From Pempheris klunzingeri (Eukaryota > Chordata > Actinopteri > Acropomatiformes > Pempheridae), in NCBI RefSeq assembly GCF_042242105.1, contig NC_092012.1:36663993-36727992 (forward strand): 64,000 nt of DNA. The letters run 5' to 3'. This document shows positions 1,146-39,500 of the stretch, in pieces; the stretch's first letter is position 1; each line of letters opens with the position of its first letter. A model generated the notes under the pieces. It was not told where the DNA came from. It did not search any database and was given only the letters and a program-made list of their open reading frames with translations. A program made the translations under genes and the position numbers.

Positions 1146-2732
1146 TTAGTCCCGCTTGTGTTTGCGTTTGAACACTGTAGAGCACACACACCTCATCAGA
1201 GTGAAAATGGTGGACAGCAGGAGCAGCAGGGCTGCAGCCAGGAGCAGCAGCACGTCTACAGAGTGGTAGGAGTACCAGGGCAGCCGGTAGGACTGAGCCC
1301 TCAGGTGAGCTGCACCTTTGTGTCTCATGACAAACTCTATCCAGTAGAGGGCGCTGTCCAGAGGCTTCATCGGCTGATCCTTGTGCAGCCTGGAGAGTCT
1401 CTGCATGTTTGCCCTGTAGGAGGGCTCACTCAGGACCTCCTGTATGGCCTTCAGGAAGTTGTCGTCTTTGTCCACCGTATTAATGGTCAAAAGCTTCGCC
1501 GCCCCTTTCTCCTTCAGACGCAGTAGGTTGTCGTACTGGTCAAAAAACAGTGGAAGTCCTACGACTGGGACTCCGTGGTAAATAGCCTCCTGAACGCCAT
1601 TGGTTCCTCCGTGAGCCACGAACAGTTTGGTCTTTGGATGTCCCAGGAGGTCGTTCTGAGGCATCCAGTCCACCAGTAAAGTGTTGTTGCCCAGAGTGGC
1701 TGGTCTGGCCCCTTTATGCCTCCAGATGACTTTCTGAGGTAACTTAGAAAAAGCTGCAGCGATCTTGTCTGTTATGTCAGCAGGAAGTTCACTGATAAAA
1801 GTGCCCAGAGACATGAGGATGACTCCGTGCTCTCCAGAGCTCTGCACAAACTGCTCCAGGTGTTCAGGAAGAGCTTTGGCAGGTTTACACTGGAACCCCC
1901 CCATGTAGACCACATTAGGCATGGTGGGACGGGGGAACTCAAACACAAAGTCCACCCTCATGAGCCACAGGTCTGCATCCACCGCCATCTGGTGGAAATC
2001 GGTCCCTGGCCCCAGGTATCGGTCACAGATCTTCTGGTATATGCGCTGACCTATCAGGTGATTCTGTGTTTGGGTTATCAGGTGCAAAACCACATTTTTA
2101 ACTCTCTGGCCAAAGGTCATGTGATCGGTATTTCCCGACCCGGTGATGGGGATGTAAGACAGAGGTGACGGGGCAATAGCATGGTGGGCTTCTCCAGCGA
2201 TCAGCCAGCGAACGTTATAAACCAAAGGAAGGTTCAAGTATTTGGCCAAAATGACCCCCCCGCCCCAGCAGGGATCGGTCAGCACCAGGTCGAACTTGCT
2301 GTCCTTCATGGTTCTCATCAGCTGTCCGTCGCCAAACATTGCTGACACAAAGTCACCCACGGTGGCGTGAGCTTCCAGAAAGGTGCTGAACAACCCGACA
2401 GTCACGTGGAGGAAACTTGTGAGGGGGAGGGCCCCCCGCTCAAATTCAATGACCTTTGATAGAATTTTGGTGATGAACTTCTGGTCGAGGCTCCTCTCCA
2501 CCTTCACGGTGAGGGTGTTGTAGTGGGGGGAGTTGTCCGGGATGTACCAGCTCTTACTGGAGCGGACAATGGTGACGTTGTGTCCTCTGGAGTGCAGAGC
2601 TTGGAGCAGGACGTCCATGTTGACCCAGTGGCTGCCTTCAATGGGAAACACCAGGATGTTCCCACCCAGACAACCCCGGAGAGCCAGGAGGAGCAGCAGC
2701 AGAGCGCCGCCGCAGCAGCAGGCCAGCCGCAT
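1146..2732 (-). CDS. UDP-glucuronosyltransferase, UGT5-like, single coding exon
   Basis: Predicted 528-aa UGT, an ER membrane enzyme that transfers a sugar (normally glucuronic acid from UDP-glucuronate) to small lipophilic acceptors. Visible features are an N-terminal signal peptide rich in Leu, the catalytic His in EGSHW (residue 35), and an Asp in the DLVLTDP motif. The UGT signature follows at about residues 355-400 (WMPQNDLLGHP, HGGTNG, FFDQYDN). A C-terminal membrane helix ends in a KHKRD tail that fits the KxKxx ER-retrieval pattern. The length is normal for the family. The coding region is a single exon, as known for fish UGT5 genes. On the minus strand a pyrimidine-rich tract ending in CAG directly abuts the ATG, suggesting an upstream noncoding exon. 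The C-terminal half is nearly identical to the copy at 14386-15972. The exact family number is inferred. Confidence 0.9.
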   Translation of the reverse strand: MRLACCCGGALLLLLLALRGCLGGNILVFPIEGSHWVNMDVLLQALHSRGHNVTIVRSSKSWYIPDNSPHYNTLTVKVERSLDQKFITKILSKVIEFERGALPLTSFLHVTVGLFSTFLEAHATVGDFVSAMFGDGQLMRTMKDSKFDLVLTDPCWGGGVILAKYLNLPLVYNVRWLIAGEAHHAIAPSPLSYIPITGSGNTDHMTFGQRVKNVVLHLITQTQNHLIGQRIYQKICDRYLGPGTDFHQMAVDADLWLMRVDFVFEFPRPTMPNVVYMGGFQCKPAKALPEHLEQFVQSSGEHGVILMSLGTFISELPADITDKIAAAFSKLPQKVIWRHKGARPATLGNNTLLVDWMPQNDLLGHPKTKLFVAHGGTNGVQEAIYHGVPVVGLPLFFDQYDNLLRLKEKGAAKLLTINTVDKDDNFLKAIQEVLSEPSYRANMQRLSRLHKDQPMKPLDSALYWIEFVMRHKGAAHLRAQSYRLPWYSYHSVDVLLLLAAALLLLLSTIFTLMRCVCSTVFKRKHKRD

Positions 2733-5319: not shown

Positions 5320-8300
5320 ATGATGCTGAGAGAAGGGGGGGCAGCCACCTCTCTCCCACTGCTGCTGCTGCTGTGCTGCTGCCACCTGTGCCTCTCACTG
5401 CGTAAGTGTCTTCAGCACTGGGGACGCTTCATCACATGACCACTGTGAAGTAGCCTCCGTGTGACACATTGCATGGTCCAAGATAAGCTGGATTTGTAGA
5501 AACAGAGAAAGGAGATGTAGAAACTGGTCAGTGAAGGGAGCTCTCCAACTTATAAACAGAGTGTGGGTGTCGGCATGAGCACTTACCTTCTCTTATCATG
5601 TTTACGGCCGTCCAGGTAGTTTGGTTCTGATGAAAGCTTTTAGCGGCTGTGATAACTGAGCCCAGAATATTGCACAAAAAGTATGCCAACTATCCAGAAA
5701 TTCAACAAGTAGCACACTTCTATTGACTGACCACCGAACAGCTCCACGATTTCTCAGTAGCCAAGAAGAGGGAAAAGAGAAGTTGAACTTCGTCAACTAA
5801 TCCTAACCCTGTTGCCATGACAGTGTGTGTGTGTCCATGTATGTACCAGCTTTCGCTGAATGTGTGTGTGGTCATGTTTGGTGTCTTTAGGAGCATGTTT
5901 GAACCGTGGGGGGTTTTGGCCTCCTGCTGTACATTTTCTTTCGCTGGTTGTAGGATGTGTGTCATCTCAGTCTGCTCTCACTGTAACTGTCACCGCCTGC
6001 CTGCTACACACGACACACACACATCACATGGTCCCTGTGTGATTCATGCTGATTTACTTCTGACAGCAGCAAGTAGGTTTCTTTGAAAATGCAGGAGTGT
6101 GTAGATATTAATTTTACTCAGCATGGGATGTAAATGAGCATCTTCTTGATCTTCGAGCACATCCATATCATTGTACGATACACATTAATGTAGCACCCTG
6201 CAGACTCTGCAGCGAGATGCTGTCGGGGGCTCAAGAGACAGGGAATTTGCTTATCGTGAAGTCATTGTTTGAGGCTGTTGCAACCTCTTCTTCATTGATC
6301 TTCACACCACGAGAGGGTGACTCCATACATGTGTGGTCAGTCTAGGAAGATTTGCAGCCAAGTCCCCGTCCATAAATTGAGTTTATGACTCTGTTGGTGA
6401 ATGATTGAAAGATCAGAATGAAAGAAATTGTGTGTAATTCAAAATGGGATCAATATTTTCTGCATTGCAGAGAAGCCTTGCTTCAGTGTCACTGTTATAC
6501 ACTTTAATGTATGGAGAGGGAGAAGAAACACACTTTATTCACAGATGACAAAAGATTTTTACTCACATTTTAGGGTCAATACACAACCTTTCAGTCATCA
6601 GTCCAAAGTTCAAGCCATATTTTGACCTGCAGCTCTCATTCTCTTAGCGACACACTTCACTGTCCTACTGCTGTCTCCTTCACTGACCTTCAGTATCCTC
6701 CCAGCAGTGATTTTTAATGAAATGTATGCACCTTGAAGTGAGAGTGCCTGCATTACTCACAGTCAGGACACACATGAGTAGACACTGATGAGTAAACACT
6801 TTTGTTTTTACTGTGGTAGAAGAATAAAAGAAGAATGAAAGAAGGACAGCGCACACAGAAAAACAAGTATGCTGACGTGTTGGCTCTAGTTGACCAACGT
6901 AACCATGAATACACTCAGTCATGTAAGAGATGTGTTAAAGCCACCTTTGATATGAGCTAAGATGAAGATTAACAGTCAGAATCAGTCACAGTGGTTTCTT
7001 GCTTTGAATGTTTTGGCTGTTCCTTCATTTTCCCAGGAGGAGTTTGGGGCCTGTTCCCGGTGCATGTTGGACTCCGGCAGGGCTGCCCTTTGTCACCGGT
7101 TCTGTTCATTATTTTTATGGACAGAATTTCTAGGCGCAGCCAGGGGCCGGAGGGGGTCCGGTTTGGGGACCGCATGATAGCATCTCTGCTTTTTGCGGAT
7201 GATGTTGTCATGTTGGCTTCGTCAGGCCGAGACCTCCAGTGTGCACTGGGGCGGTTTGCAGCCGAGTGCGAAATGGCTGGGATGAGAATCAGCACCTCCA
7301 AGTCCGAGGCCATGGTTCTCGACCGGAAAAAGGTGGTTTGCCATCTCCGGGTCGGTGGAGAGTCCTTGCCTCAAGTGGAGGAGTTCAAGTATCTCGGGGT
7401 CTTGTTCACGAGTGGGGGAAGGATGGAGCGTGAGATCGACAGGCGGATCGGTGCAGCGTCTGCAGTAATGCGGTCGCTGTATCGGTCCGTCGTGGTGAAG
7501 AGGGAGCTGAGCCAAAAGGCAAAGCTCTCGATTTACCGGTCGATCTACGTTCCTACCCTCACCTATGGTCATGAACTTTGGGTCATGACCGAAAGAACAA
7601 GATCTCGGATACAAGCGGCTGAAATGAGTTTCCTCCGCAGGGTGGCCGGACTCACCCTTAGAGATAGGGTGAGGAGTTTGACCATCCGGGAGGGGCTCGG
7701 AGTAGAGCCGCTGCTCCTCCACATCGAGAGGAGCCAGCTGAGGTGGCTCGGGCATCTGTTTCGGATGCCTCCTGGACGCCTCCCTGGGGAGGTTTTCCGG
7801 GCATGTCCCACCGGAAGGAGGCCCCGGGGAAGACCCAGGACACGCTGGAGGGACTACGTCTCTCGGCTGGCCTGGGAACGCCTCGGGGTCCCACCGGATG
7901 AGCTGGAGGAGGTGTCTGGGGCCCGGGAAGTTTGGGCATCTCTGCTAAAACTGCTGCCCCCGCGACCCAACCCCGGATAAGCGGTTGAAAATGGATGGAT
8001 GGATGGATGGAGTTTGGGGCTCTGACAGGAAAGACTAAGCCTTTTGACAAAGCTTAAGCCTGTCTCTTTTTTCTCCTTATAGGGGTTCCAAAACCCTCCT
8101 CCTATGCAAAAGCAGAGGATGAGTTGTTCAAATTCCTCTTTGGAAACTACCAGAAATGGGTCCGTCCAGTGGAATACTTAAACCAGACGATCCTTGTGAA
8201 GTTTGGACTGGCCATCTCCCAGCTCGTTGATGTGGTGAGGACATGTAGTTCATGAAAGTGTGATGCTCAGGGTTAACTACAATGACTGTCACACATAGCT

Positions 8301-11108
8301 GAAAGACAATTGTATTTATACTGTTGCTCCATGAAAATGTTTCAACAGAGCTGCCTTTTAAAACTGACATTTGAACTTGATTGTTGTCTCGTTATTGTAG
8401 GACGAGAAAAATCAGCGAATGACTACTAATGTGTGGATGAAACAGGCAAGTACTGTACCTCTGACCCACAGCGTTATGTTTGACCCCCATCAGTTAATAT
8501 TTGTATTGTCAGGGTGTGGCTCTTAATCAATCAATCAATCTTTATTTATATAGCGCCAATTCATAACAGTGTTATCTCAAGATGCTTTTCACAAAGAGCA
8601 GGTCAAGACCAAACTCTTTAATTAAGAGAGAGACCCAACGATTCAGGAATCGATAGATGGATATCTATCTATCTGGTGTTGTAAATCTCCTTCGCTTGGC
8701 AGTCACGTCTTTGATTGAAAAAAAGTTCCCAGATATTCAGCTGGTTTCACACTCTGGCCTCCAGAATCTTCTTCCCCAGCGTGTTTGGGCCAAATCAAAC
8801 ACACTGGTTAGTGACAGGCTGGTTAGTACTCCAACAGCAATGAAGGTTGCTATATTTGCTGGCACATAGCGATATAATTTATAAAATATATATATAATTA
8901 CAAAATATCAGAGCACACAAAGCATATTTACAGGAAACGTTTGACATTTTGTGAAATGTGCTCATTGGCTTTCATGCAATGGGTTAGAGCAGAAAGTTGT
9001 TACCGCTGTCATCTGTCAGTAGTCAGTTAGCTTAGCTTAGCACCTAGACGGAAACCGGGGGTGGGCAGCAACCTTTTCTCTGTCCACATGTAACAAGGTC
9101 TGCAAACTCTTTAATTAATGTATATAATGCTTTGACATTTGTTCACTTTAGTTTTCACATGGATTAAACAAATGTGATACAGTGTGATAATTAGTAGGCT
9201 TTAGAGGTGCTGGTAGGCAGATCTCTTTCCAGGCAGAGCCAGGCTAGCTGTTACCCCCTGGTTTTGGTCTATGTGCTAAGCTAAGTTACCATCTTATCAT
9301 ACAGACACAAGTCTTCATCCAGCTGTTGGTAAGACCGGGAAAAGGCATATTTCTGGAAATATCAAACCGTTCCTTTAAAGTTTCACAGTGCGCGTAGATG
9401 TTTGTAATGAATACATCTGAAGTGTTTCCTTTATGTAGGAGTGGATTGACATGAAACTCAGGTGGGACCCTGGTGAATATCTGGGCATCACAGTTATCCG
9501 AGTCCCCTCTGACAGGATCTGGCTCCCTGACATTGTGCTGTATGATAAGTATGTGTCATTATTTGTTGAATGAAATGGCTGAGATATCATGGATTTTGTA
9601 TTTTCCAAAATGTATAAAGATATGACCACACTAATCTGCTGCAGTACTGTATCATTAAATGTCTTTAGAGAACCTATAAAGCAAAAAAGTCTACTAAAAC
9701 TAAAAATGAACAGAAATTCTACCAGTGTCTTTAACTGTGAAGACATCGTTTAGATGAATCAGGGTTATTTCTTCCAACAGTTCAGATGGGCGTTTTGAGG
9801 GCACTGTCACCAAGGCTGTTGTTAGGTATGATGGAACCATATCTTGGACACCACCAGCCAATTACAAGTCAGCCTGCACCATCGATGTCACCTTCTTCCC
9901 TTTCGATCTCCAGAACTGTTCAATGAAGTTCGGTTCGTGGACATATGATGGGTCCCAGGTGAGTGTATCCTCCACAGATGGTCAGTGTTATTCATAAGCA
10001 GTCATGGGCTGAGGTTTCACTCTGACTTTAACAGGTGGACATAATTCTGGAGGACTTCCATGTGGACAAACAAGATTATTTTGACAACGGTGAATGGGAG
10101 ATAGTGAAGGCCACAGGCAGCCGTGGTCTGAGGACAGACGGCAGCTCCTCCTATCCCACCATCACCTACTTCTTCATCATCCGCAGGCTGCCTCTTTTCT
10201 ACACCCTCTTCCTCATCATCCCCTGCATTGGCCTGTCCTTCCTCACCATCCTTGTCTTCTATCTGCCCTCCAATGGCGGTGAGAAGATCTCTCTCTGCAC
10301 CTCAGTCCTGGTGTCACTCACAGTTTTCCTCCTGGTCATTGAGGAGATCATCCCCTCCTCTTCAAAGGCTATCCCTCTCATTGGGGAGTACCTGGTCTTC
10401 ACCATGATCTTCGTCACACTCTCCATCATCATCACTGTCTTTGCCATCAACATCCACCATCGATCCTCTTCTACACATCACGGCATGGCCCCCTGGGTGA
10501 GGAGGATTTTCCTGCATCGGCTGCCTAAGCTGCTGTGCATGCGCAGCCACGTGGACCGTTATGCCACAGCTGGAGTGGCCAGAGGCAGAGGAGCGGTTGG
10601 ACTGGGAATGATGAAGGACTCAGCACCGGAGCTGACACCTCTCCTCCACACCAAACACAACCTACAAGCAGCTTTGGACTCTATTCGCTACATAACCATG
10701 CATGTGGTTAAAGAAAATGAGGTCAGAGAGGTGAGTGTGTTGCATTTGGTGTATTTACATATATCCACAGGTAATAACAAAAGTGGTTAACAGCTATATA
10801 AACTAGTATTGGTGGCCCTGTCCTTTGTCTTGTTTAAAACAACACAACAAATTATGACAAAGGCTCCAATTAAGCTCACAAGATGGAGTACTATATGTTT
10901 CTAATACAAGTACATGTCAAGTAACTGATGCACGTCTTTTCTGTTTCAGGTGGTCCAAGACTGGAAGTTTGTAGCTCAGGTCCTGGATCGAATGTTTCTT
11001 TGGGCCTTCCTCCTCGTGTCAGTCCTGGGCTCTGCTCTCCTCTTCATCCCAGTAATTTACAAGTGGGCAAACATCATCGTCCCCACCCATGCTGGAAGTA
11101 CCCTCTAA
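5320..11108 (+). CDS. chrna5: Nicotinic acetylcholine receptor subunit alpha-5
   Basis: Coding exons: 5320-5401, 8083-8234, 8401-8445, 9439-9548, 9781-9958, 10035-10730, 10950-11108 (473 aa). Alpha-5 is an accessory subunit of pentameric acetylcholine-gated cation channels at the plasma membrane, usually partnering alpha-3 and beta-4, which are encoded downstream. The product has a Leu/Cys-rich signal peptide, a Cys-loop (C162 and C176), four membrane helices with M2 beginning [13 protein letters not shown], and an ending in [13 protein letters not shown]. Assignment as alpha-5 rests on [42 protein letters not shown] and the synteny. Oddities: residues 226-227, where human alpha-5 has vicinal Cys-Cys, are Ser-Ser; an extra 76-bp intron splits Q189 from V190; and intron 3 has a GC donor. 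D404 aligns with human Asp398. AATAAA lies at 11395. The ATG at 5323 is an equally plausible start. Confidence 0.93.
7051..8008 (+). mobile_element. 5'-truncated LINE (Rex1/L2/CR1 group) in chrna5 intron 1
   Basis: The open frame to the TAA at 7978-7980 encodes the C-terminal part of a non-LTR reverse transcriptase: RQGCPLSP, the FADD catalytic box at about 7195-7206, then the thumb and C-terminal region ending [10 protein letters not shown] short 3' UTR (AAGCGGTTGAAA) and an ATGG-repeat tail follow. A 12-base direct repeat GGAGTTTGGGGC flanks it at 7039-7050 and 8009-8020 and is the target-site duplication. The endonuclease and N-terminal RT domains are missing, so it cannot move on its own. 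The uninterrupted frame and perfect duplication indicate a recent insertion. The exact clade name is uncertain. Confidence 0.85.
8523..8650. repeat. Interspersed repeat, second copy, in chrna5 intron 3
   Basis: Starts with ATCAATCAATCAATC and the core TTTATTTATATAGCGCC, followed by a CAAGATGCTTTTCACAAAG segment and AGAGAGAGACCCAACG. The design matches the repeat at 155-340. The class (SINE-like or LINE tail) is not determined. It lies in the 993-bp intron between 8446 and 9438. Confidence 0.5.
8930..9380. repeat. GCTAAGCTAA-type dispersed repeat, copy 1
   Basis: Within chrna5 intron 3, two opposed blocks share the hallmark of a fish dispersed element: TTAGCTTAGCTTAGCAC at about 9028 and the reverse-oriented GTGCTAAGCTAAG at about 9272. 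Between them is sequence with AGGTGCTGGTAGGCAG and CAGAGCCAGGCTAGCTG. Similar blocks recur at 27640-27990 and 51240-51420. The inverted layout suggests a non-autonomous DNA element, but termini and target duplications were not resolved. Confidence 0.45.
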
Positions 11109-11580
11109 GAGTCATAGTTCAACAAACCACACGTGGGGGTGAAGCACATCAACAACTTGTTATGGGTCTAATTTGAGATTTGAATGACTAAGATACTGAG
11201 ATTACCTCTGAGATACTCGGACACTCTGCTCATCCACTCTCTTTTTATAAGCAGAGCCGCGATCTTGTCTGCTAATTAGAGATGGTGTTTTTGTTTAAGT
11301 GAGAGCTGAATCCTGTTTTTCTTAGTAAGTCAAGGAAAACTGACTCAGTTGATGTACGTCATGATCATAACACAGTACATTTTGCCCACACATCAATAAA
11401 TTTCATTACATTCATTTCAGCTTTTTATAGTTGCTGGAATCATAGAGCGGAGGTTTATCATTCGGTCTGGTACACATTCATAGAAATGTGATCTGACATG
11501 GTTCAGACTAAATGTCTACAGGTTACAGGACACAGGGATCAGCACCAGTTCAGTTCATTCCAGTACAAATGTATGGTCTA
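11109..11580 (+). other. chrna5 3' UTR region
   Basis: Follows the chrna5 stop codon. AATAAA at 11395-11400 is a plausible poly(A) signal about 290 bases downstream. No other gene is visible before the satellite array begins near 11580. Confidence 0.5.
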
Positions 11581-13560
11581 TAGTCTGCAGATCAGTCTGT
11601 AGATCAGTCTACATATTAGTCTAAAGATCAGTCTACAGATCAGTCTAAAGATCAGTTTGCAGGTCAGTTTGCAGATCAGTCTACAGATCAGACTGTAGAT
11701 CAGTCTACATATCAGTCTACAGATCAGTTAGCAGATCAGTCTGCAGATAAGTCTGCAGATCAATCTACAGATCAGTCTGTAGATCAGTCTACAGATCGAT
11801 CCGCTATAAGTCTACAGATCAGTCTACAGATCCATCTGCAGATCAGTCCACAGAGCAATCTGCAGATGAGTCTACATATCAGTCTCCAGATCTGTCTGTA
11901 GATCAGTCTGCAGATGAGTCTACGTATGTCTACAGATCAGTTTGCATATCAGTCTATAGATCCATCTACATATTCAGTCTGAAGATCAGTCTACAGATCA
12001 GTCTACATGTCAGTCTAGTTTATTCTACAGATCAGTCTGTAGATCAGTCTACAAATCAGTCTACATATCAGTCTGGTGATCAGTCCACATATCAGTCTGC
12101 AGATCAGTCTACATATCAGTCTGCAGATCAGTCTACAGATCAGTCTGAAGATGAGTCTGCAGATCAGTCTGCGGATCACTGCAGATCAGTCTACAGATCA
12201 GTCTGTAGATCAGTCTACATATCAGTCTTCAGATCAGTCCGCATATCAGTCTGTAGATCAGTCTACAGATCAGTTTGCATATCAGTTTAAAGATCCATCT
12301 ATAGATCAGTCTGCAGATCAGTCTACAGATCAGTCTGAAGATGAGTCTACAGATCAGTCTACAGATCAGTTTGCATATCATTTTAAAGATCCATCTATTG
12401 ATCAGTCTACAGATTAGTCTGTAGATCAGTCTGCAGATCAGTCTACAGAGCAGTCGGCAGAGTAGTCTACAGATCAGTTTGCATATCAGTTTAAAGAGCC
12501 ATCTATAGATCAGTCTGTAGATCAGTCAGCAGAGTAGTCTACAGATCAGTCTGTAGATCAGTCTGAAGATCCATCTATAGATCAGTCTGCAGATCAGTCT
12601 GTAGATCAGTCTGAAGATCAGTCTACAGAGCAGTCGGCAGAGTAGTCTGCAGATCAGTGTACAGATCAGTCATATCAGTCTACAGATCAGTCTGCAGAGC
12701 AGTCTACAGATCAGTCGGCAGAGTAGTCTAAAGATCAGTTTACATGTCAGTCTACAGATCGGTCTACAGATCAGTTTGCATATCAGTTTAAAGATCCATC
12801 TATAGATCAGTGTGAAGATCAGTCTAAAGAGCAGTCTGTAGATCAGTCTATAGATCAGTCTACAGATCAGTCTGCAGATCAGTCTACAGATCAGTCTGTA
12901 GATCAGTCTGTAGATCGGTCTACAGATCAGTCTACAGATCCATCTGCAGATCAGTCTGCAGATCAGTCTAAAGAGCAGTCTGTAGGTCAGTCTACAGATC
13001 AGTGTGAAGATCAGTCTTAAGAGCAGTCTGTAGATCAGTCTATAGATCAGTCTGCAGATCAGTTTGCAGATCAGTCTGAAGATCAGTCTACAGATCAGTC
13101 TACAGATCCGTCTGCAGATCAGTCTGAAGATCAGTCTAAAGAGCAGTCTGTAGGTCAGTCTACAGATCCGTCTGCAGATCAGTCTAAAAAGCAGTCTGTA
13201 GGTCAGTCTACAGATCAGTCTGAATATCAGTCTGCAGATCAGTCTACAGATCAGTCTACAGATCCGTCTGCAGATCAGTCTGCAGATCAGTCTGTAGATC
13301 AGTCTGTAGATCAGTCTGCAGATCAGTCTGCAGATCAGTCTGTAGATCAGTCTACAGATCAGTCTACAGATCTGTCTGCAGATCAGTCTGCAGATCAGTC
13401 TGCAGATCAGTCTACAGATCAGTCTACAGATCTGTCTGCAGATCAGTCTACAGATCACTCTACAGATCAGTCTGCAGATCAGTCTGAAGATCAGTCTAAA
13501 GAGCAGTCTGTAGGTCAGTCTACAGATCCGTCTGCAGATCAGTCTACAGATCAGTCCACC
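11580..13560. repeat. ~2-kb satellite of 12-bp unit (GATCAGTCTACA)
   Basis: About 165 head-to-tail copies of a 12-bp unit, GATCAGTCTACA or GATCAGTCTGCA. Variants include GATCCATCTATA and GAGCAGTCTGTA. Longer blocks such as CAGTTTGCATATCAG followed by TTTAAAGATCCATC recur, so higher-order units exist. The multiple-of-three period leaves long open frames on both strands that are compositional artefacts. The array lies about 0.5 kb past the chrna5 stop codon and about 0.8 kb before the second UGT gene. It is very dense in GATC sites. Confidence 0.95.
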
Positions 13561-14385
13561 CTAACCCTCATATAATCTAGAGAAATGTCAGACAGGCTCC
13601 AGAGTCACTGCAGCACCATCCACACCTCCCAGGATCATCTCTGTGGTTGAGCCTGCGCTGCCTCTGCATGGACATTACACCACATTACAGAGCATGGAGC
13701 ATGCTGGTGACTGTGGTGATGAAATCTGTCAGAAGCTCCAGTTACCACCACTCCAGTATAGAGACTAAAGATTTTTAAAAAATGATGAACAAGAACAGGT
13801 TGAGAATGTAAAGTTGTCCAAACACAGATGGATGAGAGGACTAAAGGGGGATGAAAGGAAAAGAGATCTAGATGAGTGAGAGCTCTTAAACTGAGGTGGT
13901 CAGTTTTTTGGTCGAAATCAAAATGGTGAAAATCAAACTCAAATGGGTTGAATTCTATGCTGCTCAGTTTATTCGAGTTTATTATCCAGAGTTGTACATC
14001 ATCATACCCAAGTGGACTCATTTGATATTTCCTTGCGAATAGTAAATGAATCTGAGCACAAGTTAGATTAGTCAGGGAAATAGAACATTGTTGTCCATTC
14101 CTGAAGAAAAGAGCCCAAAGAACAGCTTAGCTATAATCCACTTATGTAAGCATTCCTGGAGTCTGTGGTCATGTGTTCAGTGGTACCTTTGGTGTTTCAC
14201 ACCAACATCCAAACACATTCGTGGCCGGAGCTGCTTCATGTAAAACAGGTATGTTACATATTAGTTATGCATGCAATTCAGTGTCGCTGAATTTGTGAAT
14301 AATTATTCATTATTTTCATGGCTCAATTTCTAACCCAGTGAGATTAAGAACAATATTTTATCTGTTTTGTCTTTTCAGATTAAAT
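13561..14385. other. Upstream region of second UGT gene
   Basis: No coding homology is visible. TATCTGTTTTGTCTTTTCAG ending at 14378, eight bases before the chosen ATG, is a strong splice acceptor. A noncoding 5' exon of the UGT gene therefore probably lies in or beyond this stretch. Confidence 0.45.
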
Positions 14386-15972
14386 ATGCTCCCCGACAGA
14401 AATGAAACCTTTCTTCTCTTATCTATCATGCTTTTGTCATGGAGACTTAGTCACGGAGGCAAGATTTTGGTTGTACCTTTAGAGGGAAGCCACTGGGTGA
14501 ACATGGACATCATGATAAAAGCTCTCCATGCTCGAGGACATTCTGTCGATGTCGTGCGAACCAACCAAAGCTGGTACATCCAGGAGAACTCTCCACACTA
14601 CAAGACAATCACAGTTTCTGTCAGGGAAGCCTTTAATCATGACTTCATCAACCCGATCCTGAAGAAGATAATTGAAATAGAAAGGGGTGAGAGCTCAGCC
14701 CTGAGCTTTGCAAGTTTGCAGCTTGAGATGTTTACTGCGATGTTTAACATGCACAGGATCATGTGCAAAATGGCTACTATCATGTTTAAAGACATGTACC
14801 TAATGAATAGATTAGAGGATAGGAAGTATGACCTGGTCCTCACCGACCCAGCATGGGGTGCAGGTATAATGTTGGCTCATGCTCTTAAGGTCCCGCTGGT
14901 CTATAATGTGCGCTGGACGACAAGTGGAGAGGGACATCTGGCCATCGCACCTTCTCCTTTGTCTTATATCCCAATGACTGGCTCAGGACTGTCAGACAAA
15001 ATGACGTTTATACAAAGAGTCAAAAACCTTATCTTCTATGTTATTTGGCAAGCTCAGGATGGGTTTTTGATCAGCCCTCAGTATCAAGCTGTGTGTGATG
15101 AGTTCTTTGGCCCTGAAGTCAGATATAGTGACTTATTACATGGGGCAGACCTGTGGCTCATGAGGGTGGACTTTGTGTTTGAGTTCCCCCGTCCCACCAT
15201 GCCTAATGTGGTCTACATGGGGGGGTTCCAGTGTAAACCTGTCAAAGCTCTTCCTGAACACCTGGAGCAGTTTGTGCAGAGCTCTGGAGAGCACGGAGTC
15301 ATCCTCATGTCTCTGGGCACTTTTGTCAGTGAACTTCCTGCCGACATAACAGACAAGATCGCTGCAGCTTTTTCTAAGTTACCTCAGAAAGTCATCTGGA
15401 GGCATAAAGGGGCCAGACCAGCCACTCTGGGCAACAACACTTTACTGGTGGACTGGATGCCTCAGAACGACCTCCTGGGACATCCAAAGACCAAACTGTT
15501 CGTGGCTCACGGAGGAACCAATGGCGTTCAGGAGGCTATTTACCACGGAGTCCCAGTCGTGGGTCTACCTGTGTTTTTTGACCAGTACGACAACCTACTG
15601 CGTCTCAAGGAGAGAGGGGCGGCGAAACTTCTCACTATTAATACGGTGGACAAAGACGACAACTTCCTGAAGGCCGTACAGGAGGTCCTGAGTGAGCCCT
15701 CCTACAGGGCAAACATGCAGAGACTCTCCAGGCTGCACAGGGATCAGCCGATGAAGCCTCTGGACAGCGCCCTCTACTGGATAGAGTTTGTCATTAGACA
15801 CAAAGGTGCAGCTCACCTGAGGGCTCAGTCCTACCGGCTGCCCTGGTACTCCTACCACTCTGTAGACGTGCTGCTGTCTTTTCTGGCTGTGGCTACAGTG
15901 ATTTCTTTTCTCCCTCTTGTGATCTTCAGATTTGTATGTTTTGAGAAATGCTTGAAAAGAAAAACTAATTAA
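14386..15972 (+). CDS. UDP-glucuronosyltransferase, UGT5-like, second copy
   Basis: Predicted 528 aa from the ATG at 14386, the same length as the copy at 1146-2732. The frame opens further upstream only by reading through a splice acceptor and using GTG, so this ATG is preferred. It has a signal peptide, the catalytic His (residue 36, EGSHW), DLVLTDP, the UGT signature (WMPQNDLLGHP, HGGTNG, FFDQYDN) and a C-terminal membrane helix. The KRKTN end fits the KxKxx ER-retrieval pattern. It should conjugate small hydrophobic acceptors in the ER lumen. From GADLWLMR to SYHSVDVLL only a handful of residues differ from the first copy, while the acceptor-binding N-terminal half and the tail differ widely. 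It lies between the convergent chrna5 and chrna3 genes. The substrate cannot be inferred. Confidence 0.92.
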   Translation: MLPDRNETFLLLSIMLLSWRLSHGGKILVVPLEGSHWVNMDIMIKALHARGHSVDVVRTNQSWYIQENSPHYKTITVSVREAFNHDFINPILKKIIEIERGESSALSFASLQLEMFTAMFNMHRIMCKMATIMFKDMYLMNRLEDRKYDLVLTDPAWGAGIMLAHALKVPLVYNVRWTTSGEGHLAIAPSPLSYIPMTGSGLSDKMTFIQRVKNLIFYVIWQAQDGFLISPQYQAVCDEFFGPEVRYSDLLHGADLWLMRVDFVFEFPRPTMPNVVYMGGFQCKPVKALPEHLEQFVQSSGEHGVILMSLGTFVSELPADITDKIAAAFSKLPQKVIWRHKGARPATLGNNTLLVDWMPQNDLLGHPKTKLFVAHGGTNGVQEAIYHGVPVVGLPVFFDQYDNLLRLKERGAAKLLTINTVDKDDNFLKAVQEVLSEPSYRANMQRLSRLHRDQPMKPLDSALYWIEFVIRHKGAAHLRAQSYRLPWYSYHSVDVLLSFLAVATVISFLPLVIFRFVCFEKCLKRKTN

Positions 15973-21422: not shown

Positions 21423-24400
21423 TCAAATGTCCTCCCCAAGTAATAAAGGCTGGAGGAAGAGGCCAGCTGTTCCCAAGATGCACACAAGGACGAAAACCCA
21501 CAGGAAGATCCTGTCGATAACCATGGCAACGTACTTCCAGTCATCCTGAACCTGTGACAGCATCACAGGGAAAGCATTTTCACAGATATGTTGACACTGT
21601 TGTCTTGAAAGCAAATTTCCTATAAAGGTTTTAAAGCTATAGTTTAAAATGGTGTAATGAGAATAAGAACTTACCTCCTTTGCTTCATTCTGTAGTCTCA
21701 TGTTCTCTGCTATGTATTTCACACTCTCAATGGCCTCTCTGACCTCAGGGGAGAGTGGCAACAGGGACATTATTCCTTCATCTAGAGACTCGGAGCTGGA
21801 GCACTGACTGCCCCCTCCAACTCCAACAGCACTGCCTCCTGACAGAGGCCCCAGGCTACCCAGCCCTCCGCTCCCTCCCTGCAGGTCTGCAGGTAGTTTG
21901 GTGGATCTCTGGTGCCAGCAGCAGTTGCAACGGCCCTCGCAGCACAGGAACGTTGAGCCTGCACCTTTGGCCGAATCTCCACTTAAGTTATTGAGGTTGG
22001 AGAGCTCTGTGTTGTTGAAAGGCCTTTGGCGGCTTGTCAGGCCTGATACCACACTGGAGGCCAGGGCCTGAGGTTTGTGCTGCCTCTGCAACATACCTGA
22101 CGAGTGAATGGCACAGGGCCTTGAATGCATGGTCTGAACACTGCCAGCCACTGTCACCTGCTCGGGGTTCCTCTCTGGCCTGGTCATGAACATCACTCTG
22201 GGTAACAGCCCCAAGAACACAGTCCTCACCCAGCAGGGCATAGTGTGGGTCTTTGGTGTGCGGTAGTGGACGTTCAACACAAAAACAGTGATGACAATAG
22301 AAAGGGTAACGAAGATCATGGTGAAGAGGAGGTACTCACCAATCAGGGGGATGACAAGTGAGGTGGAGGGGATCGTCTCCGTTATTACGAGGAGGAAGAC
22401 GGTTAAAGACAGCAGGACGGAGATACACAGAGTAACTTTCTCACCACAATCAGATGGCAGGTAGAAGACGAGCACAGTGAGGAAGGAGATGAGGAGGCAG
22501 GGGATAATCATGTTGATGGTGTAGAAGAGTGGCAGACGTCGGATATACAAAGAGTAAGTGATATCAGTGTAGATTTCCTCGCAGCAGTTGTACTTGATGT
22601 CATGTTTGTAACCAGGGGCGTCGATGATTGTCCACTCGCCACTCTCCCAGAAGTCCTTGAGGTTGATGGTTGAGCCAATCAGCACCAGATCGATCTTGGC
22701 CTTGTCGTATGTCCAGGAGCCGAACTTCATGGTGCAGTTTTGGTAGTCAAAGGGAAAGTAAGTGACATCAATCTTGCAGGAGCTCTTGAATATGGCTGGA
22801 GGTATCCATGTAACATCGCCATTGTAACGAAGCAGTGCCTTCGTTTTGTCATCAACCTGGAAATCTCCGACTGCACTGTAGACAAAGAGAGAGCAAAAGA
22901 GAGAAGGTTGAGTAACTGAAGAGTTAACTGAAGGATGTGCACATTGACTATTGTTTCATGGAGACAGACATGAAAAGAGATGCTCCGTGGCTTCAGTAAA
23001 ATGCACCCTCCACTGTCTCTTTTACAATCCCTTTAGAATATGCAAAACAAAAATCAATGAAGATGTTGAGCCAGGTTTTTAGTTTGTTGTTACACTCACT
23101 TGTTGTACAGCACAATGTCTGGCTTCCATATCCTGTTGGACGGCACACGAATAAACTCAACGCCTCCAAAGTCTTTTGGATTCCATCTGAGTTTGTAGTC
23201 ATTCCAGATCTGAAAAACAAAACAGAATGATTAAGCCATAGCCATAATAATTGCTAACCATCTGAAAGTCAGGTTGAATTGGTACAATAGTCACAACCAA
23301 TCACGTTGGTTGATCTTAACCTTTAAGCAGAATTTGACTCAATGAAGGCACTATTTATTCATCCAAAAAAATCAAAGAGAATTTAAGTACTTAAACATAA
23401 ACGCACTGCTGATAAAAAGAATTAAGATATATGCAACATGGATAGCTAAAACGTAAAATACAGTACAAAGTATAACCCAAGTAGCAGAACATAGTAAAAT
23501 GAGTCTAAAGTCATGCTAGCAGGATCACTAAAGTCATTAGGGTGTGTTTTCTGGGGAAAAAGTAGTTCTGTGCAACATTTCATGGTGATCCAAAGTGGCA
23601 AGCCAATCAACAGACCCACACTGACTTTACAAGAGCAAAATGTGTCTACCAAACAAGCCTACTAGGAAATGGCAGGATGCCACCTCTCCATTCTTTCAAT
23701 ATACAGTGCCTATAGAAAGTCATCATACCCCTTTGAAATAGTTACATTATTTGTTGTACAGCCTGAAATCAAAACTCATAAAAAAAAAAAATCCAGCTTT
23801 ATTTACAAAATTTTTCCATACAACGTCAAACTAAAGAACAAAAAGGCGGCAGTTCCGAAAATGTATAAAAAATGAAAAACTAGAATACAAGGTTGGAAAA
23901 GCCATCGGTCCCCTGATTTAATACTTTGTAGTGCCACCTTTTGCTGTAATTACAGCCATCAGTCTGTTCGGATAGGTCTCTATTAGCTTTGCACACCTAG
24001 ATTGAGGAATATTTGCCCATTCTTCCTTGCAGAATTGTTCGAGTTCAGTCAAATTCTGTGGTGAGCGGCGATGAACTGCTCTCTTCAAGTCCATCCACAG
24101 ATTTTCTATAGGTTTTAAGTCAGGACTTTGACTTGGCCACTCAAGGATATTCACCTTCCTATCCTTAAACCACTGCGTTGTTCTTTTGGCGGTATGTTTA
24201 GGATCGTTGTCGTGTTAGAAGGCGAATGACCTGCCCATCTTCAGCTGTCTAGCAGAGGGACGCAGGTTTTCCTCAATAATTTGGGTGTACTTGGCAGCAT
24301 CCATTTTCCCTTCAATCTTGACCAATTTCCCAGTCCCCGCTGAAGAGAAACATCCCCACAACTTAATGTTGCCACCACCATGCTTCACAGTAGGTATGGT

Positions 24401-27400
24401 GTGTTTTGGGTGGTGTGCTGTGTTCGGTTTTCGCCAAACGTAGCGCTTGGAGTTCAGTCCAAAAAGTTCAATCTTAGACTCATCTAACCATAAAACCTTT
24501 TTCCACATGGCAACAGAATCTTCCAGGTGTGTTTTTGCATAGCACAAACGGGATTGAGTGTGGCACTTTTTCAGAAGAGGCTTCTTTCTTGCCACCCTGC
24601 CATACAGGCCAGCTTTGTGTAAAGCTTGTGAGATTGTTGTCACATGCACAGACCTACCAGTCCCAGCCATAAAGACTTGTAAGTCCTTCAAAGTTGCCTT
24701 TGGCCTCGTTGTAGCTTCTCTGATCAATGCCCTCCTGGCTCGTCATCCAGTTTGGACGGACGGCCTGATCTAGGCGAGCTGTTGGTGGTGCCATACACTT
24801 TCCACTTCTTAATGATGCTCTGAACAGTACTCAAAGGGATAGCTAAAACCTTTGAAATCTTTTTGTAGCCTTCACCTAACTTGTGTCTTTCTACAACTTT
24901 ATCCCAAAGGTCTTTTGAAAGCACTTTTCCAACCATAGTGAATTCTTTGCAGCACCATGCGCTACTAGTAGTGGAATCTTCAAGAAACAGCTGGTTTTAT
25001 TCTGAAGTAATCCAAACCACTATAATTGATGTCAGGAGGGAGGCAATTAGCTTGGTGTTTCATCTGTAAGTTGATTGGTTGCACCTGAGCAAGTTTATAA
25101 TGGTATACTCCAAGGAGCTGATCACTTAACCAAACCAGGTATTTCATTATTTAATTTTTAATAATTGTCCAGCATGTTTTAAAATGTTATTTTCACTTTG
25201 ATGATGAGGTTTATAATCAGCTCAAAAAAGTTAGCTCTGATTTATTTTAATTTCCAGGCTGTAATGTGACAAAATGTAAAGATTTTCACAGGGTATGATG
25301 ACTTTCTATAGGCACTGTAAGTGGTTTAAACTCAACAAGTTTGTCACAGACAGCTTTAAAAGCTACAGAACAGATACTAAAACAAAAGGGTGACAGTTGC
25401 TTCCTTCTGGTGATTATATTTTACAATATAATTCTGCTCTGACTGATTTAAACACGTTCTCTTGTAAGAGGTCCTTCATAAAACAACAAGAAGTCGTCAT
25501 CTCCAATTGTGGACTATAAACAATGTTTATCCAGTACATTGTCTGAGCAGAGATATAATGAACCATAGTTCACAGTGTTAAATTAACCTTTTTGGCCACT
25601 GGCCACCAGTCATAAAACTACAATGGTAAAACAACCTCAGAGAACTATAAAAAAAATCACTTAATTAAGAAACGGTAAGAACCTAGAGTGTATTATATGA
25701 TTTGGGTGGCTAGCAGGAGAGATGCTTAGAAAACTCTAAAACAGCAGGTGACATTAAAACAGAGCTTCAACTATCAGCACCAAAGAGCAATCACAGCTCA
25801 GCCCTTTAGCATGAACATGGCTCCAGTACAGATGAGGATTCGCTCAGTAATCTGACTCAAACTGGTTCACTGCACTATGCATCACAGCAGCGAAGACACC
25901 ATGTGGGTCCAGTGAATGACAAAACATTAAGCCATACAGCATGTATGGTCACTGCTTTGTGTTTTTGTCGACTGCCTCTCTGTAGCTGAGGTACTGTTTG
26001 CTGCAGATGTTTAAAGGTTTCTGTCATAGTATCAAAAGAGATATTATGGAGCGTATAGCAAGTATAATAAATTCCAAACATGTCAGTGGATTTTATAGGA
26101 TTTTCAAAATGTTTAAAAAGATAGCCCTGGAAGGTTCAGTGTGCTTGAACAGCTTGTCTCCATGAATAATTCATCTTTTCAGTCTAGCCTTGAAGAGTCA
26201 TGTATGACAGACAACTGGATTCATACTTGATGTCCTTGCTCAAGGTCTATTTGCACAGTTATGCACCCTATACTTACATGCCTCAGCCACAGATTTGTCT
26301 CCATGATCTGATTGACTTCATCCTGAGAACAGAGCAGAATTGATAATTAAGACACTTAATCAAAGAAAAAACAGTAAATGGTAACATTTTAAAGTTAAAA
26401 CAGGAAGAACGCTGTCACAGGTGATCACCCAGTTCCCCACGGAGGATTGTTTCTGTGCTGTCTGCAGGCCCAGATCCCATACAAGAGGATTAAGAGAGGC
26501 ACACCTGAGTCCTCCCCGCCTGGAGTGTTACGCTCACGACAGCTGGAGCCACGGGATCGCAGCACAGCCTTGAATCTTATTCCAACAGCTCAGATTGAAG
26601 GGGGGAAGGAAAAAACTGTGGAGGTCAGGTTTGAATGTGACTTAGACCGTGAATTAACCAATCTCATAACCCAGTGCATAACATTAAGCGTGCATGTTAA
26701 CATTTAGTATCCAGGAGCAGTTTGACACGGGAGATAAGCGCAGGTGGATGGTGGTTTTGCTGCATGTTTACAGCTAATGCACACATCCTGATTCTTATCA
26801 CTGAATCAGGCAGAGTGCAGAGTCACAGTATATAGAAATACAGTATGTTCTGGTTCAGTGTGGGTTTTTCTTTTTTTTTTTTCACGTGGATCTACAATTG
26901 TAGCACCATTTCACCAGGCACTATAGCTGTGTAGCATACACTTCAAGCATTGCTGACCGCATGAGCTGAGGTCAAGATCAAACCAAAACTCATACACACC
27001 AAAGTCATTTCTTGGTTTTTAGTTGTTCATACATTTACGTTTCTGTGTGGAATGGAAAGAGCCATAACGTGTTAATTAGTGATCTTAAGAGTCGCTGATC
27101 TTTGAACAGGGGTAGGAAGGCTGTTCAGTCTTTAAGATAAGCTAACTGACTCCTGGATACACCTTCATATTCAATGGACAGACATGAAAGTGGGGCTGAT
27201 GTTCACATCTAACTCTTGCAAGAAAGTAAGTGCATTTCCCAACATGTCAAACCATTTCTTTAAAGAAGAGTCTCTATTGCCCCTGCAGCATACGCCACAT
27301 GCTGTGAACCCTCAACAGAGAGCCTCATATGATTACTGATTGTGAGATGATGACTGAGCCAGCTGGCCGATGACCCACTGATGGTCTAAATGAGCTCATA

Positions 27401-33533: not shown

Positions 33534-36500
33534 TCACATGCGAGGACTATCTGAGCTGGGCTGCTGGTTGGGAGGAATCTGACTCTGGAAGAGAGGCTGG
33601 AGAAATAAGCCCAGTGTACCCACCACACACACAATCACAAAGATCCACAGGAACATCCGATCCACCACCATAGCCACATACTTCCAGTCCTCAATCACCT
33701 GCAAATACACAGAAATTACATTTACATTAGTTTATAATTAGTTTATTATCATGGCAGTGTTGCAGAGCTGTGAGACGACCTGCTGCAGGGTGCTGCCTGT
33801 GGATGCTGCACGGCCTCTGTGCAGCCACTCGGGGGCAGAGAGAGAAACCGAGTCAATGAATGAGGGAATAAGTGGTGACAGTGAATCACTTTTGTATCTT
33901 CTTTGCATCCAAACAAACTGTAAAACCCTAACAACACATCTTACATACATCTTGGGAATATGTCTTGCAGTAGGATTATTTCAAAGGTGTTACATCCTGT
34001 CTGAACAGTAACAGTGCTTGTTGTAGGTAAGCTCATTCTTAGGATGTTGACTGGGTAATATTTGAATGGGAGCATAGTAAAGTCATATCCCTGTTAGGGG
34101 GGTTTTTATTTTGCTGACACTGACACTAAAACAGCTATTGACCCTTTCACCCCATTTTCAATGCTGTCCTTGGTAGTTTTTGGATTAAGTAATTTCTCAT
34201 TCCTTCTTTCCTCCTTAATTTATTGATTTATCAGAGAAAGCAATTGATTATCCAAAGTCTGCCTGGGTCACAGTAGTACTTAAGGTTAATGGTATTCCTT
34301 CCTGTGCCTGTCAGGGGTCATAGAATAAACGGTAAATGTTATCACATCAGTACAAACACGCATAATCCAGTTTATTGGAATAGATGGAAGAGAAGGGCGA
34401 AGAACCAAGTAGGTAAGGCTTTGATGGCAGAAAATAACTCTAAACATGGCCAAAGTTATTTTAGCTACCACCTTTTAATCTTGTCACAGCATGAGCACAT
34501 AAAAATGTTGCATCCAATCATATTGTCTCATTATTTGACTGATGCTGGCCACACAATTTTCCAAGTTTTCTATTTTCTATTCAGTAACTCATGTCTGGTT
34601 AGCATAAAATCTGTAAACAGGAAGTTAACAGCTCTCTCTAAAGTTCAAAAATCCACCAACCAGCCAAATCTCACTAATTAACCCATTTTTCACTTGTTAA
34701 AAATATAAAAAAACATCAATTTGTGGTTTTAGAGTTATTATGTGCAGCAATTACAGTATTTCCTAACTAACAACTTTGTATCCATTACTTTTTGCAGTGT
34801 CTCAACATGGCTAAAATAGTGACAGTGTGTAACTTTTGGGTGTTATTGCAACTCAACCAGCTGCTGCCCTGCTGACGTCACGCTGCCCTGCTGCTGCCAT
34901 GCTACCCTGCTGACGTCACGCTGCCCTGCTGATGTCACGCTGCCCTGCTGCTCTGCTGACGTCACGCTGCCCTGCTGACATGCTGCTCTTCTGCTGCCAC
35001 GCTGCTCTGCTGACCCGCTGCCCTGCTGACACGCTGCTCTGCTGACACGCTGCCCTGCTGACACGCTGCCCTGCTGATATCACACTGCCCTGCTGACATG
35101 CTGCTCTTCTGCTGCCATGCTGCTCTGCTGACCCGCTGCCCTGCTGACACGCTGCTCTGCTGACACGCTGCCCTGCTGATATCACACTGCCCTGCTGATA
35201 TCACACTGCCCTGCTGCTCTGCTGACACGCTGCTCTGCTGATACGCTGCCCTGCTGACGTCACGCTGCCCTGCTGCTCTGCTGACACGCTGCTCTGCTGA
35301 TGTCACGCTGCCCTGCTGACACGCTGCTCTGCTGACACGCTGCTCTGCTGACGTCACGCTGCCCTGCTGCTCTGCTGACACGCTGCCCTGCTGTCCTGCT
35401 GACACGCTGCTCTGCTGACATCACGCTGCCCTGCTGCTCTGCTGATGTCACGCTGCTCTGCTCCTGTCACGCTGCTCTGCTCCTGACACACTGCCCTGCT
35501 GCCCTGCTGACCCGCTGCTCTGCTGACGTCACGCTGCCCTGCTGACACGCTGCCCTGCTGACACGCTGCTCTGCTGATGTCACGCTGCTCTGCTGCTCTG
35601 CTGCTCTGCTCCTGTCACACTGCCCTGCTGCTCTGCTTCTGTCACGCTGCTCTGCTGCCATCTGGTCACTAAAATGTCACTAATGAGCTGCTGCTCGTGA
35701 GCTGTCAGGTTGCCGTGGTGACGGTGCCTGCAGAGCCACACACTCTTTTCATTGAGATTACAGCTGTGACACACCTCCGAAAATCCAGGTTTTACTCAAA
35801 ATGGTACGTGTCACAGCTTTAAAGCTTTAAATTAGGTGGAAACAGCTGAGGGTCTTGTGACCTGGTTAAAAGTTTAATGGAGTCTCTAGCTGACAGTAAG
35901 AGGAAGCTATAAGCTTTCTAAGTGGAGGAAGTTGAAGAGAATTTGAAAAATACATACACTCTGATCATCATCGTCTCCCATCATGTGCTCAGCCACAAAG
36001 CGCACCCCATTCACCGCTTCCTGGACATCAGACACCCAATCTGAGTTGCTTCTCTGCTGGAGGTCCTGGGTGGAAGTGAAACCGCTGGGAAGGTGATCGG
36101 TGGAGCGCAAGTCCCCTTTCCTGTTGGAGTAGCTGTAGCTTAGTGGAGGAGCTACGTTTCTGTGTCCCGGGGTGGAGAAGGCAGAGTCAGAGGACAGCAG
36201 GGCAGAAGACGACATGTTGATACCTGTTTTGGATGCAACTGGGTAACCCAAGCCCAAAATGGCTCTCCTCGCCCTTAGACATCGCTGTTGGCGAAGTCTC
36301 TGGCGTGCAGAGTTATTGTGAGGGCGTCTCATGAAGAGTAATGCAGGCAGTTTGACAAGAAAAATCAGCTTGACCCAGGATGGCATAGTGTGGGTGCTGG
36401 GAGAGCGGTGGTGCACGTTGAGCACACACACACTGGTGATGATGGAGAAGGTCACCAGCACCATGGTGAACATCAGGTACTTGCCAATCAGGGGCACATC

Positions 36501-39500
36501 CAGTGAGGTGGGAGGAACAATCTTTGAGATTAATAGCAGGAACACAGTGAGAGCCAAGAGAACAGAGATGCAGAGGGTCATCTTCTCCCCACAGTCTGAT
36601 GGTAAGTAGAAGACCAGAATGGCCAGAGAGGTGATCAAAACACAGGGAATAATGAGATTGATGGTGTAGAAAAGAGGCTTCCTTTTGATGATGAAGTCAT
36701 ATGTGAGGTCTACATAGGTGGGATCCAGAGGGTTGACAGTCCGTCTGCCTGGCAGCGCCAAGATATCCCACTCCCCACTGGGAGTGAAGTCATCCATACT
36801 GGCCACCTCAGACTTCAAGATCAGGTCAATCTCTGTGTGGTCGTATGTCCAAGAGCGGAACTTGAGGGTGCAGTTCTGCTGGTCGAAGGGAAAATGCTTG
36901 ACCTCGATCTTACAGGCGCTTTTGTAGATGGCTGGAGGAAGCCAGTTGATGCTGCCATTGAAAAGGACAATGGCATTGGTGAAGACTGTCACCTCATAGG
37001 TACCATCAGCACTATGAGAAGAGAAAGACAGAAGAGTTTAGAGAACCTGTGAATCAATCTCTGCGGCTTGTGTTCTGAACCCAGCAGTCATAGTGAAGAT
37101 TGGAAGAAAGCCACACATACTCAAGATTTGTTTTGTTTCTACTGCAAAAAAAAAAAAAAATTCACAAGAACAGCCTAAAATAATAAAACCATCATATATA
37201 AACTCTGTAGAGGCTTCAGAGAATCAATTTGAAAACGTATTAATGGTGAACAGAACAGAACCCCCCCCCTCATTGCTGTCCAAAAACATTTGAACCTTAT
37301 ACGGACAACATTGGCAGATTCTAAAAATAATACAAACATTGCACATAGGCATGTAAAATCTCTCTGTAACGTAACACTCGTTCCAGTGACGCTTACTTGT
37401 TATAGAGGACGATATCTGGCAGCCAGATGTGTCTGGAGGGAATACGCAGCTTGTCGATACCTTCGTACTTTGCAGGGTCCCATGATAACCTGTAATCCAC
37501 CCAGTGCTGCAGACGCAAAGAGGCCTGGTCATTAGTCTGACTTCCACTCACTTTCTCAAAACCAGCTCATTTCTAATTACATGCTTCATTATCAGTGAAA
37601 TATGTTTGGAGCACAATCACAGTTTGTTCCACGCTCAGAGACAAAGACTGGATATGGTTTAATCCAAGTTCAGGGGGAAGGACATTTAACAAGACATAGG
37701 CTGGCTGAGAGTATATGAGTCTGAGCTTCATTACACTTACCTGAGTGAGCCAGACATTTGTGGTCATGATCTGTTCTCTCTCATTCTGCAAATGCACAAG
37801 TGAGGTAGAATTACTTTCACAGCAGTTTTCACGCAAAGACAATTAGCTAATGTTAAACTGTGTTACCTGACCCTGAACACTGATTTAACACTGAACTGTC
37901 TCGTTCTGATCCTGGACCCATGAGGGTCTAACACTCTTTTCAGCTCTGGACCTCGGAGGGTCAACTGAGCTAAGCTCAGTGCTGTCTTTCTGCCTCCTCA
38001 TCTGGATTGAGGAGAACTCTTCCCCAGAGCCCTCTTACATTCCTGAGGGCCTCTGCCTCAGTTTGCCCTGTACCAGACCAGGCCACCCTGTTTCATAGCA
38101 GCGGCACGAAGTCCTGTCTGAACCAAGCTTCTCAGCACCAGCAGGTATGACCCAAAGTCTGCCAGCTGATCATCAGAGCAACAGGAGCACGCCAGCAGGT
38201 TAGCACTGAGCTGCTAACTAGCAAGGGACAAAGGAGCGACGGGATTCCTCCAGCCTGCAACCAGGACAGCAAGGACAAAGAACCACAACCTTCTCCCAGC
38301 CTGGTTCATCAACAGGCTAAGAAGCAGCACACTTAAGGACCTTCTTCTCCCATTTTAAGGACTGGTTACAAACTCTAACTGGGCATATATAGAATAGCAT
38401 AACTATATACATGGCTAAGCAATAGTGTAACATTGTTAATGTATTGGTTTTGATTTGCTTTATTGAGCACTGAGTTTGATTACTGTGATGTGTTGTAGTT
38501 TACTGTGCAGCCATAAAGTAAAGTTGAGGTTAGTTGCTCACACAGACACAGTCTACATGCAGACTAACCATCCTCTCCTGACCTGCACCTTTATCTACAC
38601 ACTCACACATACAGTTTACAATAGGCCTCGACTGAGAGACAAAGCTAAGCTAACAGCTGCAGCACTTAGCTTTACTTTGTCTGCCTCTGACCCACACACC
38701 AGGGGGTCTGGTAATCATCATTTGGCTTCCCCCACCTTTTATGGTCTTCCATCTTTCATTCCTTTTGCCTAGTCACACGTACACACCCCTCACACACACA
38801 TACACACACACACACACACTCTCCTTATCCTTTGTTAGCTAGTCAGTCACACTTAGTTAGAATGTTTATGATTGATTTTGTAATGTTTTAATACACATGG
38901 TGTCTTCTTTAATATTGTGTGTGTACTGAGTGAATACTGCCAACCTCTACTCTGTCAAGAACTCCGAAATCCTTCAGCTAGCTATCAATGTGATAATTTT
39001 GGTAGTAGTTATTAAGTTAATTATTAATCATAATACCAAATTGATAGTTTAGTAATTTTATGAGTTATTTAATTAATTCAATTAAATTAATTCAATTAAA
39101 CTATCTTTTTCCTCGTTTATCAAGGTGGTGCCCCAATCGAGGTGGACTTAACACAATGTCCCATTATTTTAAATAATTATAAATTATCTTTGATAGTTAT
39201 TAATTATTTCTGATAGCCAAATTGCCCCATACAAGGTACCAAACATTTTTGGTGCCGCCGTATGAGATTATTAATTGTCCAAACATGATTGGAACCCCTA
39301 CAGTTATTGGTGCCCAAGATACCAAAGCACAACACCAGTTAAAAGTCTATTCTAAAGAACCCTTTGGAAGATTTGGTGGTGACCAAAAGGTATTATAGTT
39401 CATTAATAGGGCTGCAGGGTATGTCAGACAAAAAAGACCTGAATAGTAATAGCAAAAAGAAGAGCATTTTCACTAAATATCCCAATACTATCTCTTGGTT

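Follow-up and report, generated by a model that had tools for sequence, protein, structure and literature searches.

How should a gene be read that bears the name of a nicotinic receptor alpha subunit and has serines where alpha subunits carry their defining pair of neighboring cysteines? The question is raised by chrna5 of the fish Pempheris klunzingeri, which lies in a window of 64,000 nucleotides from contig NC_092012.1, the window being the whole stretch of DNA that was analyzed. An earlier note, made from the letters of this stretch, had described the gene as probably functional, its loop C as beta3-like, and any residual principal-face agonist role as one that the serines would end.

Gene model of chrna5

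The gene has seven exons and 473 codons with no internal stop, and five of its six introns are bounded by GT-AG, the other one by GC-AG. Its parts are as follows.

5320..5401, forward strand: exon 1, predicted signal peptide, ATG at 5320 or 5323 (open frame MMLREGG...LCLSL, donor GTAAGT after C, phase joining exon 2)
8083..8234, forward strand: exon 2
8401..8445, forward strand: exon 3, followed by the GC-AG intron (donor GCAAGT)
9439..9548, forward strand: exon 4, with loop A Tyr128 near the exon end
9781..9958, forward strand: exon 5a, with Cys-loop C162/C176 and loop B Trp183
9959..10034, forward strand: extra phase-0 intron (GT-AG, 76 bp) that divides what is one large exon 5 in neuronal subunits
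10035..10730, forward strand: exon 5b, with loop C, M1-M3, and most of the intracellular loop
10950..11108, forward strand: exon 6, with M4, the C-terminus, and the stop TAA

Pfam matches to Neur_chan_LBD and Neur_chan_memb lie far above the cut-off, and the product combines C162 and C176 with the ligand-binding domain and transmembrane region expected of a Cys-loop receptor. The reading frame, the splice sites, and both Pfam domains thus support the description of the gene as intact.

The donor of intron 3, GCAAGT at 8446-8451, is noncanonical. A very large exon 5 has been described for CHRNA2-6 and CHRNB2-5, together with CHRNA5 introns gained in four teleosts (PMC6354393, Pedersen et al. 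2019); as far as that account goes, the extra introns fall mainly in the intracellular loop, whereas the one at 9959-10034 interrupts the extracellular domain. In two alpha3/6-type genes elsewhere in the genome (L011 on C9 and L012 on C3), the large exon is split before VNLKDFW, near the site of the extra intron in chrna5.

The M2 2-prime residue is Ser275 (10290-10292), a position at which human alpha5 has cysteine. According to PMC7744819, an M2 cysteine found only in alpha5 reacts with MTS reagents; if its site is that of Ser275, the alpha5 of this fish would be without this MTS handle. Translations read by eye place a reverse-transcriptase-like frame inside intron 1 (6973-7980, forward strand), and a degenerate GATCAGTCTACA-type minisatellite of about 2 kb lies directly 3' of the gene (window 11580-13560).

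Loop C and the missing cysteine pair

The codons at 10137-10157 (forward strand) are GAC GGC AGC TCC TCC TAT CCC and encode D224 G225 S226 S227 S228 Y229 P230, within a loop C of T-D-G-S-S-S-Y-P. The three serines, encoded by AGC TCC TCC at 10143-10151, have the coordinates and residue numbers that had been assigned to them, and they fall into two features.

10143..10148, forward strand: Ser226-Ser227 (AGC TCC), site of the vicinal cysteine pair by codon reading and alignments
10149..10151, forward strand: Ser228 (TCC), aligned to Trp of human alpha5; the two beta3-like genes of the fish have Ser in one case and Trp in the other

Both loop-C cysteines are indeed replaced by serine, and each of the two codons is one base away from a Cys codon. 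Human alpha5 has Cys-Cys-Trp where the fish has S226-S227-S228. By alignment, S228 itself is unremarkable, since at the position after the pair even the fish's own beta3-like genes disagree, one having Ser and the other Trp.

The hallmark of alpha-type subunits, the vicinal cysteine pair in loop C, is therefore absent, Ser226-Ser227 standing in its place. The first loop-C tyrosine, at the position of alpha1 Tyr190, is replaced by Asp224, and Thr231 stands at the post-loop-C Asp position. Retained are loop A Tyr128, loop B Trp183, and the second loop-C tyrosine (Tyr229), and a glycine, Gly181, stands before loop B. Compared with alpha4, loop C is short by two residues (the HMMER alignment has two inserted residues against 5kxi_A and none against 8a5u_B), and it aligns without gaps to RRDGVYSYP of human beta3 8a5u_B. 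When a 152-residue chrna5 query was run against the fish's own 646 Mb assembly, 51 matches were returned. The gene matched itself at 100%, the runner-up lay on C9 at 79%, and neither another near-identical copy nor a cysteine-bearing haplotype was among them.

Neighbors and relatives in the genome

Two further receptor genes of the window bear on the identity of chrna5.

21423..22955, reverse strand: chrna3 large-exon ORF (last exon in frame), cysteine pair kept, assigned by bits and by columns against alpha6
35907..37037, reverse strand: large exon of a beta2/4/5-type gene, named chrnb4 from its position only and lacking the cysteine pair

The neighboring chrna3 retains its Cys-Cys pair in loop C, as had been noted. 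Its ORF scores 484 bits to human alpha3 (6pv7_A) and 433 to alpha6 (8zrn_A). Over one 164-residue stretch, the alpha3 and alpha6 scores were 330 and 305 for the window gene, 324 and 312 for its relative on C9, and 324 and 314 for the one on C3. Because alpha3 and alpha6 cannot be told apart by bit scores alone, we counted the 43 columns that differ between them: the window gene is alpha3-like in 32, alpha6-like in 5, and neither in 6, and the C3 and C9 genes have 23 alpha3-like columns each and 15 or 16 alpha6-like ones. Judged from these sequences, the window gene stands up as alpha3, and the choice between alpha3 and alpha6 is less secure for the C3 and C9 genes.

The last intron of chrna3 (GTAAGT...CAG, 123 bases by frame reading) contains no stop and has a length divisible by three, and its retention would insert about 41 residues ahead of M4. 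Tc1/mariner-like transposase pieces appear by eye in translations of the chrna3 gene span (23918-24996, reverse strand). Also by eye, long, intronless-looking UDP-glucuronosyltransferase-like frames flank chrna5 at 14299-15972 (forward strand) and about 1150-2730 (reverse strand). The former sits between chrna5 and chrna3, which in human are direct neighbors.

Elsewhere in the genome, C9 and C3 each hold a beta3-like gene together with one alpha3/6-type and one beta-type gene, with the C3 matches at 23580299 and 23581823 counted as one beta3-like gene. The alpha3/6-type genes of C3 and C9 are taken as chrna6 by their linkage to the beta3-like genes; chrnb3 adjoins an alpha gene, chrna6. Loop C of the beta3-like genes reads RKDGLYSYPFITY and RRDGVYWYPFVTY; as RKDGLYSYP and RRDGVYWYP, it has the same length as loop C of chrna5. 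Three alpha2/4-type genes have KYDCC or KYECC in loop C (the C18 gene is alpha4-like, and those on C24 and C11 are so called from loop C), and the beta2/4/5-type genes are without the pair. The pair is thus kept in all six other alpha2/3/4/6-type copies read (L003-L008) and absent in alpha5, a comparison that covers those copies and leaves lower-ranking members of the 51 matches (e.g. alpha7-, alpha9-, and muscle-type) outside. That two beta3-like genes and one chrna5 were found in the genome agrees with PMC6354393, where a teleost duplicate is described as kept for CHRNB3 and not for CHRNA5.

The gene is alpha5, not beta3

The likeness of loop C to beta3 is real. Beta3 (CHRNB3; human 8a5u_B and the fish copies on C9 and C3) is the sister gene of alpha5, and the window gene shares with it an equal loop-C length, the absence of the pair, Asp at the first loop-C tyrosine, and Gly before loop B. 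The claim of a beta3-like loop C was accurate to this extent. The two differ at the pair site, which is Ser-Ser in the fish chrna5 and Val-Tyr or Leu-Tyr in beta3, and in loop A, with Tyr in the fish gene and Phe in human beta3. In its neighbors, tree placement, C-terminus, and M3-M4 loop, the window gene is like alpha5.

The assignment of the gene to chrna5 was upheld by identity, tree, and neighbors. Compared with an approximate human alpha5 reference sequence, it is 77.5% identical (331/427 aligned residues), with the same loop-C length and Asp at the first loop-C tyrosine; identity to beta3, for which the reference was the 8a5u domain with an approximate remainder, is 67.1% (285/425). The 56 diagnostic columns of the extracellular domain are alpha5-like in 29 cases, beta3-like in 10, and neither in 17, and those from M1 to the end divide into 31, 10, and 23. 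A tree of 14 rows unites the window gene with human alpha5 at 87/90 and, separately, the fish's two beta3-like genes with human beta3 at 91/87. The corresponding values are 90/88 and 88/84 after masking of stretches in 8 of the 14 rows, which included loop C of all five alpha5/beta3 rows and, for C24, possibly a wrong stretch. These supports are moderate, below the 95/80 star of the tool, and come from a tree without L018 (the beta-type gene on C3) into which the C3 beta3-like gene was entered by its first part only. The gene also lies in a cluster with CHRNA3 and CHRNB4, as a CHRNA5 orthologue does, its beta-type neighbor being chrnb4 by position only; it shows neither the beta3 placement nor the CHRNA6 linkage of a CHRNB3 orthologue. 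On this evidence from sequence and linkage, the gene is chrna5, not chrnb3. A scan of viral contigs for relatives of chrna5 gave three pattern stretches, none of which was confirmed.

It is accordingly barely credible that the gene is a misnamed chrnb3 in which absence of the pair would be normal. Among the matches listed, the ligand-binding part does score best against beta3 8a5u_B (318 bits), DGSSSYP resembles DGVYSYP, and the presence of an adjoining alpha gene recalls the arrangement of chrnb3. However, the beta3 score is uninformative because an alpha5 chain is absent from the solved-structure matches listed (the best 60 of 101, and likewise the best 60 of 339), and identity, diagnostic columns, and tree all favor alpha5. 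The neighbor is chrna3 by 32 alpha3-like columns to 5 alpha6-like ones, and the beta3 copies are two other genes, on C3 and C9, so that an identity as chrnb3 is already contradicted.

Probable loss of the pair in an intact gene

We consider it very probable that this chrna5 is an intact orthologue of teleost type in which substitution removed the pair, and that it most likely encodes a fifth subunit with a purely accessory role. Under this explanation, loop C of alpha5 would already have been shorter by two residues than its alpha4 counterpart, with Asp at the first loop-C tyrosine, and the vicinal disulfide would no longer have served agonist capping and could have drifted to serine. The product would join alpha/beta pairs (e.g. 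alpha3-beta4) as the fifth subunit, altering permeability, desensitization, and trafficking without an agonist-binding principal face. Pair loss in part of the vertebrate alpha5 tree would then repeat an earlier loss in the sister beta3. Within its clade, the window alpha5 has the longest tip branch (0.22 vs. 0.06-0.09; masked, 0.21 vs. 0.07-0.10). This is two to nearly four times the length of its relatives' branches in a comparison of few sequences, of which two are approximate in whole or in part, and it fits weaker or relaxed constraint.

Because human alpha5 has an equally short loop C that still contains the pair, shortening by two residues probably preceded pair loss in this clade. A short loop with the pair present would argue against an account given in PMC9319688, which explains the shorter loop of beta3 by the loss of cysteines.

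Other routes to the serines appear much less probable than substitution under relaxed constraint. A gene conversion that replaced loop C from a chrnb3 copy would be in keeping with an excess of beta3-like diagnostic columns there (3/7, vs. 6/47 in the preceding extracellular domain), but the difference gives a Fisher p of 0.08, the pair site is Ser-Ser, unlike the Leu-Tyr and Val-Tyr of the fish's beta3-like genes, and beta3-like states may simply be ancestral; we regard this as highly unlikely. An error of sequencing or assembly is more doubtful still, as is a pseudogene in decay. The tip branch is long, and the letters are known here from the assembly alone, yet two adjacent codons are changed with the frame unaltered, the 473 codons are intact with ordered splice sites and conserved M1-M4, and no further near-identical copy is found among the 51 matches. 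Loss of the pair within an otherwise well conserved subunit could also suggest that the serine loop is adaptive, as an escape from redox or toxin sensitivity or as a new modulatory surface; relaxed constraint explains the serines of this one sequence with less, and the chance of adaptation appears as slight as that of conversion.

A broader proposal is that alpha5 of the fish lineage converged, repeatedly or adaptively, on a beta3-type loop C, with teleost alpha5 and beta3 forming an interchangeable nonbinding class. We hold this to be unlikely, though less remote than the alternatives above. If it were true, the two-residue shortening would have come first and made the disulfide dispensable.

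Earlier work and agonist binding

The abstract of Jones, Elgar and Sattelle from 2003 is said to describe the Fugu counterpart of alpha5 as apparently a non-alpha subunit. Some vertebrate CHRNA5 orthologues without the cysteine pair are reported in PMC6354393, and in the portions of PMC6354393, PMC9319688, and PMC7744819 consulted here, only the first states this absence for CHRNA5. The orthologues described there resemble ours in being CHRNA5, in the absence of the pair, and in the extra introns of teleost CHRNA5; the likeness is by description only, as the main text leaves the pairless species unnamed and gives no loop-C letters. Since CHRNA5 orthologues that lack the pair are already on record, the serine state is not exceptional. 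Pair loss in chrna5 is known in kind, what is added here is the exact letters of one species, and the serine pair is mostly an ordinary lineage difference with little surprise in it.

The earlier note had also held that the serines would "end any residual principal-face agonist role." This was overstated, because the principal face is already impaired by the missing first loop-C tyrosine, which is Asp224 here. In the discussion given in PMC9319688, this critical tyrosine is missing from beta3 and, alone among the alpha subunits, from alpha5, and beta3 is most probably unable to form a principal face. The same paper cites a pentameric-concatemer study in which ACh did not bind on the principal side of alpha5, and also Jain et al. 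(2016), according to whom alpha5 and beta3 do form plus-side ACh sites. ACh binding at the alpha5 plus side is thus disputed, and the serines by themselves are no proof that the site is dead, since one group argues for ACh binding even by pairless beta3. The plus-side residues that chrna5 keeps despite pair loss, namely the loop A and loop B aromatics and the second loop-C tyrosine, count against a lost site.

A review assigns alpha5 an accessory role, with effects on calcium permeability, desensitization, and trafficking (PMC7744819). Reading expression, function, and cause from the sequence, we infer that the alpha5 of this fish most likely works as an accessory subunit whose disulfide had become dispensable and so came under relaxed constraint. 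An "alpha" subunit without the alpha hallmark is a naming trap, and agonist binding assumed from the name, in pharmacology or in annotation, would mislead in such fish. Their chrna5 genes are natural sequences for the dispute over ACh binding at the plus sides of alpha5 and beta3.
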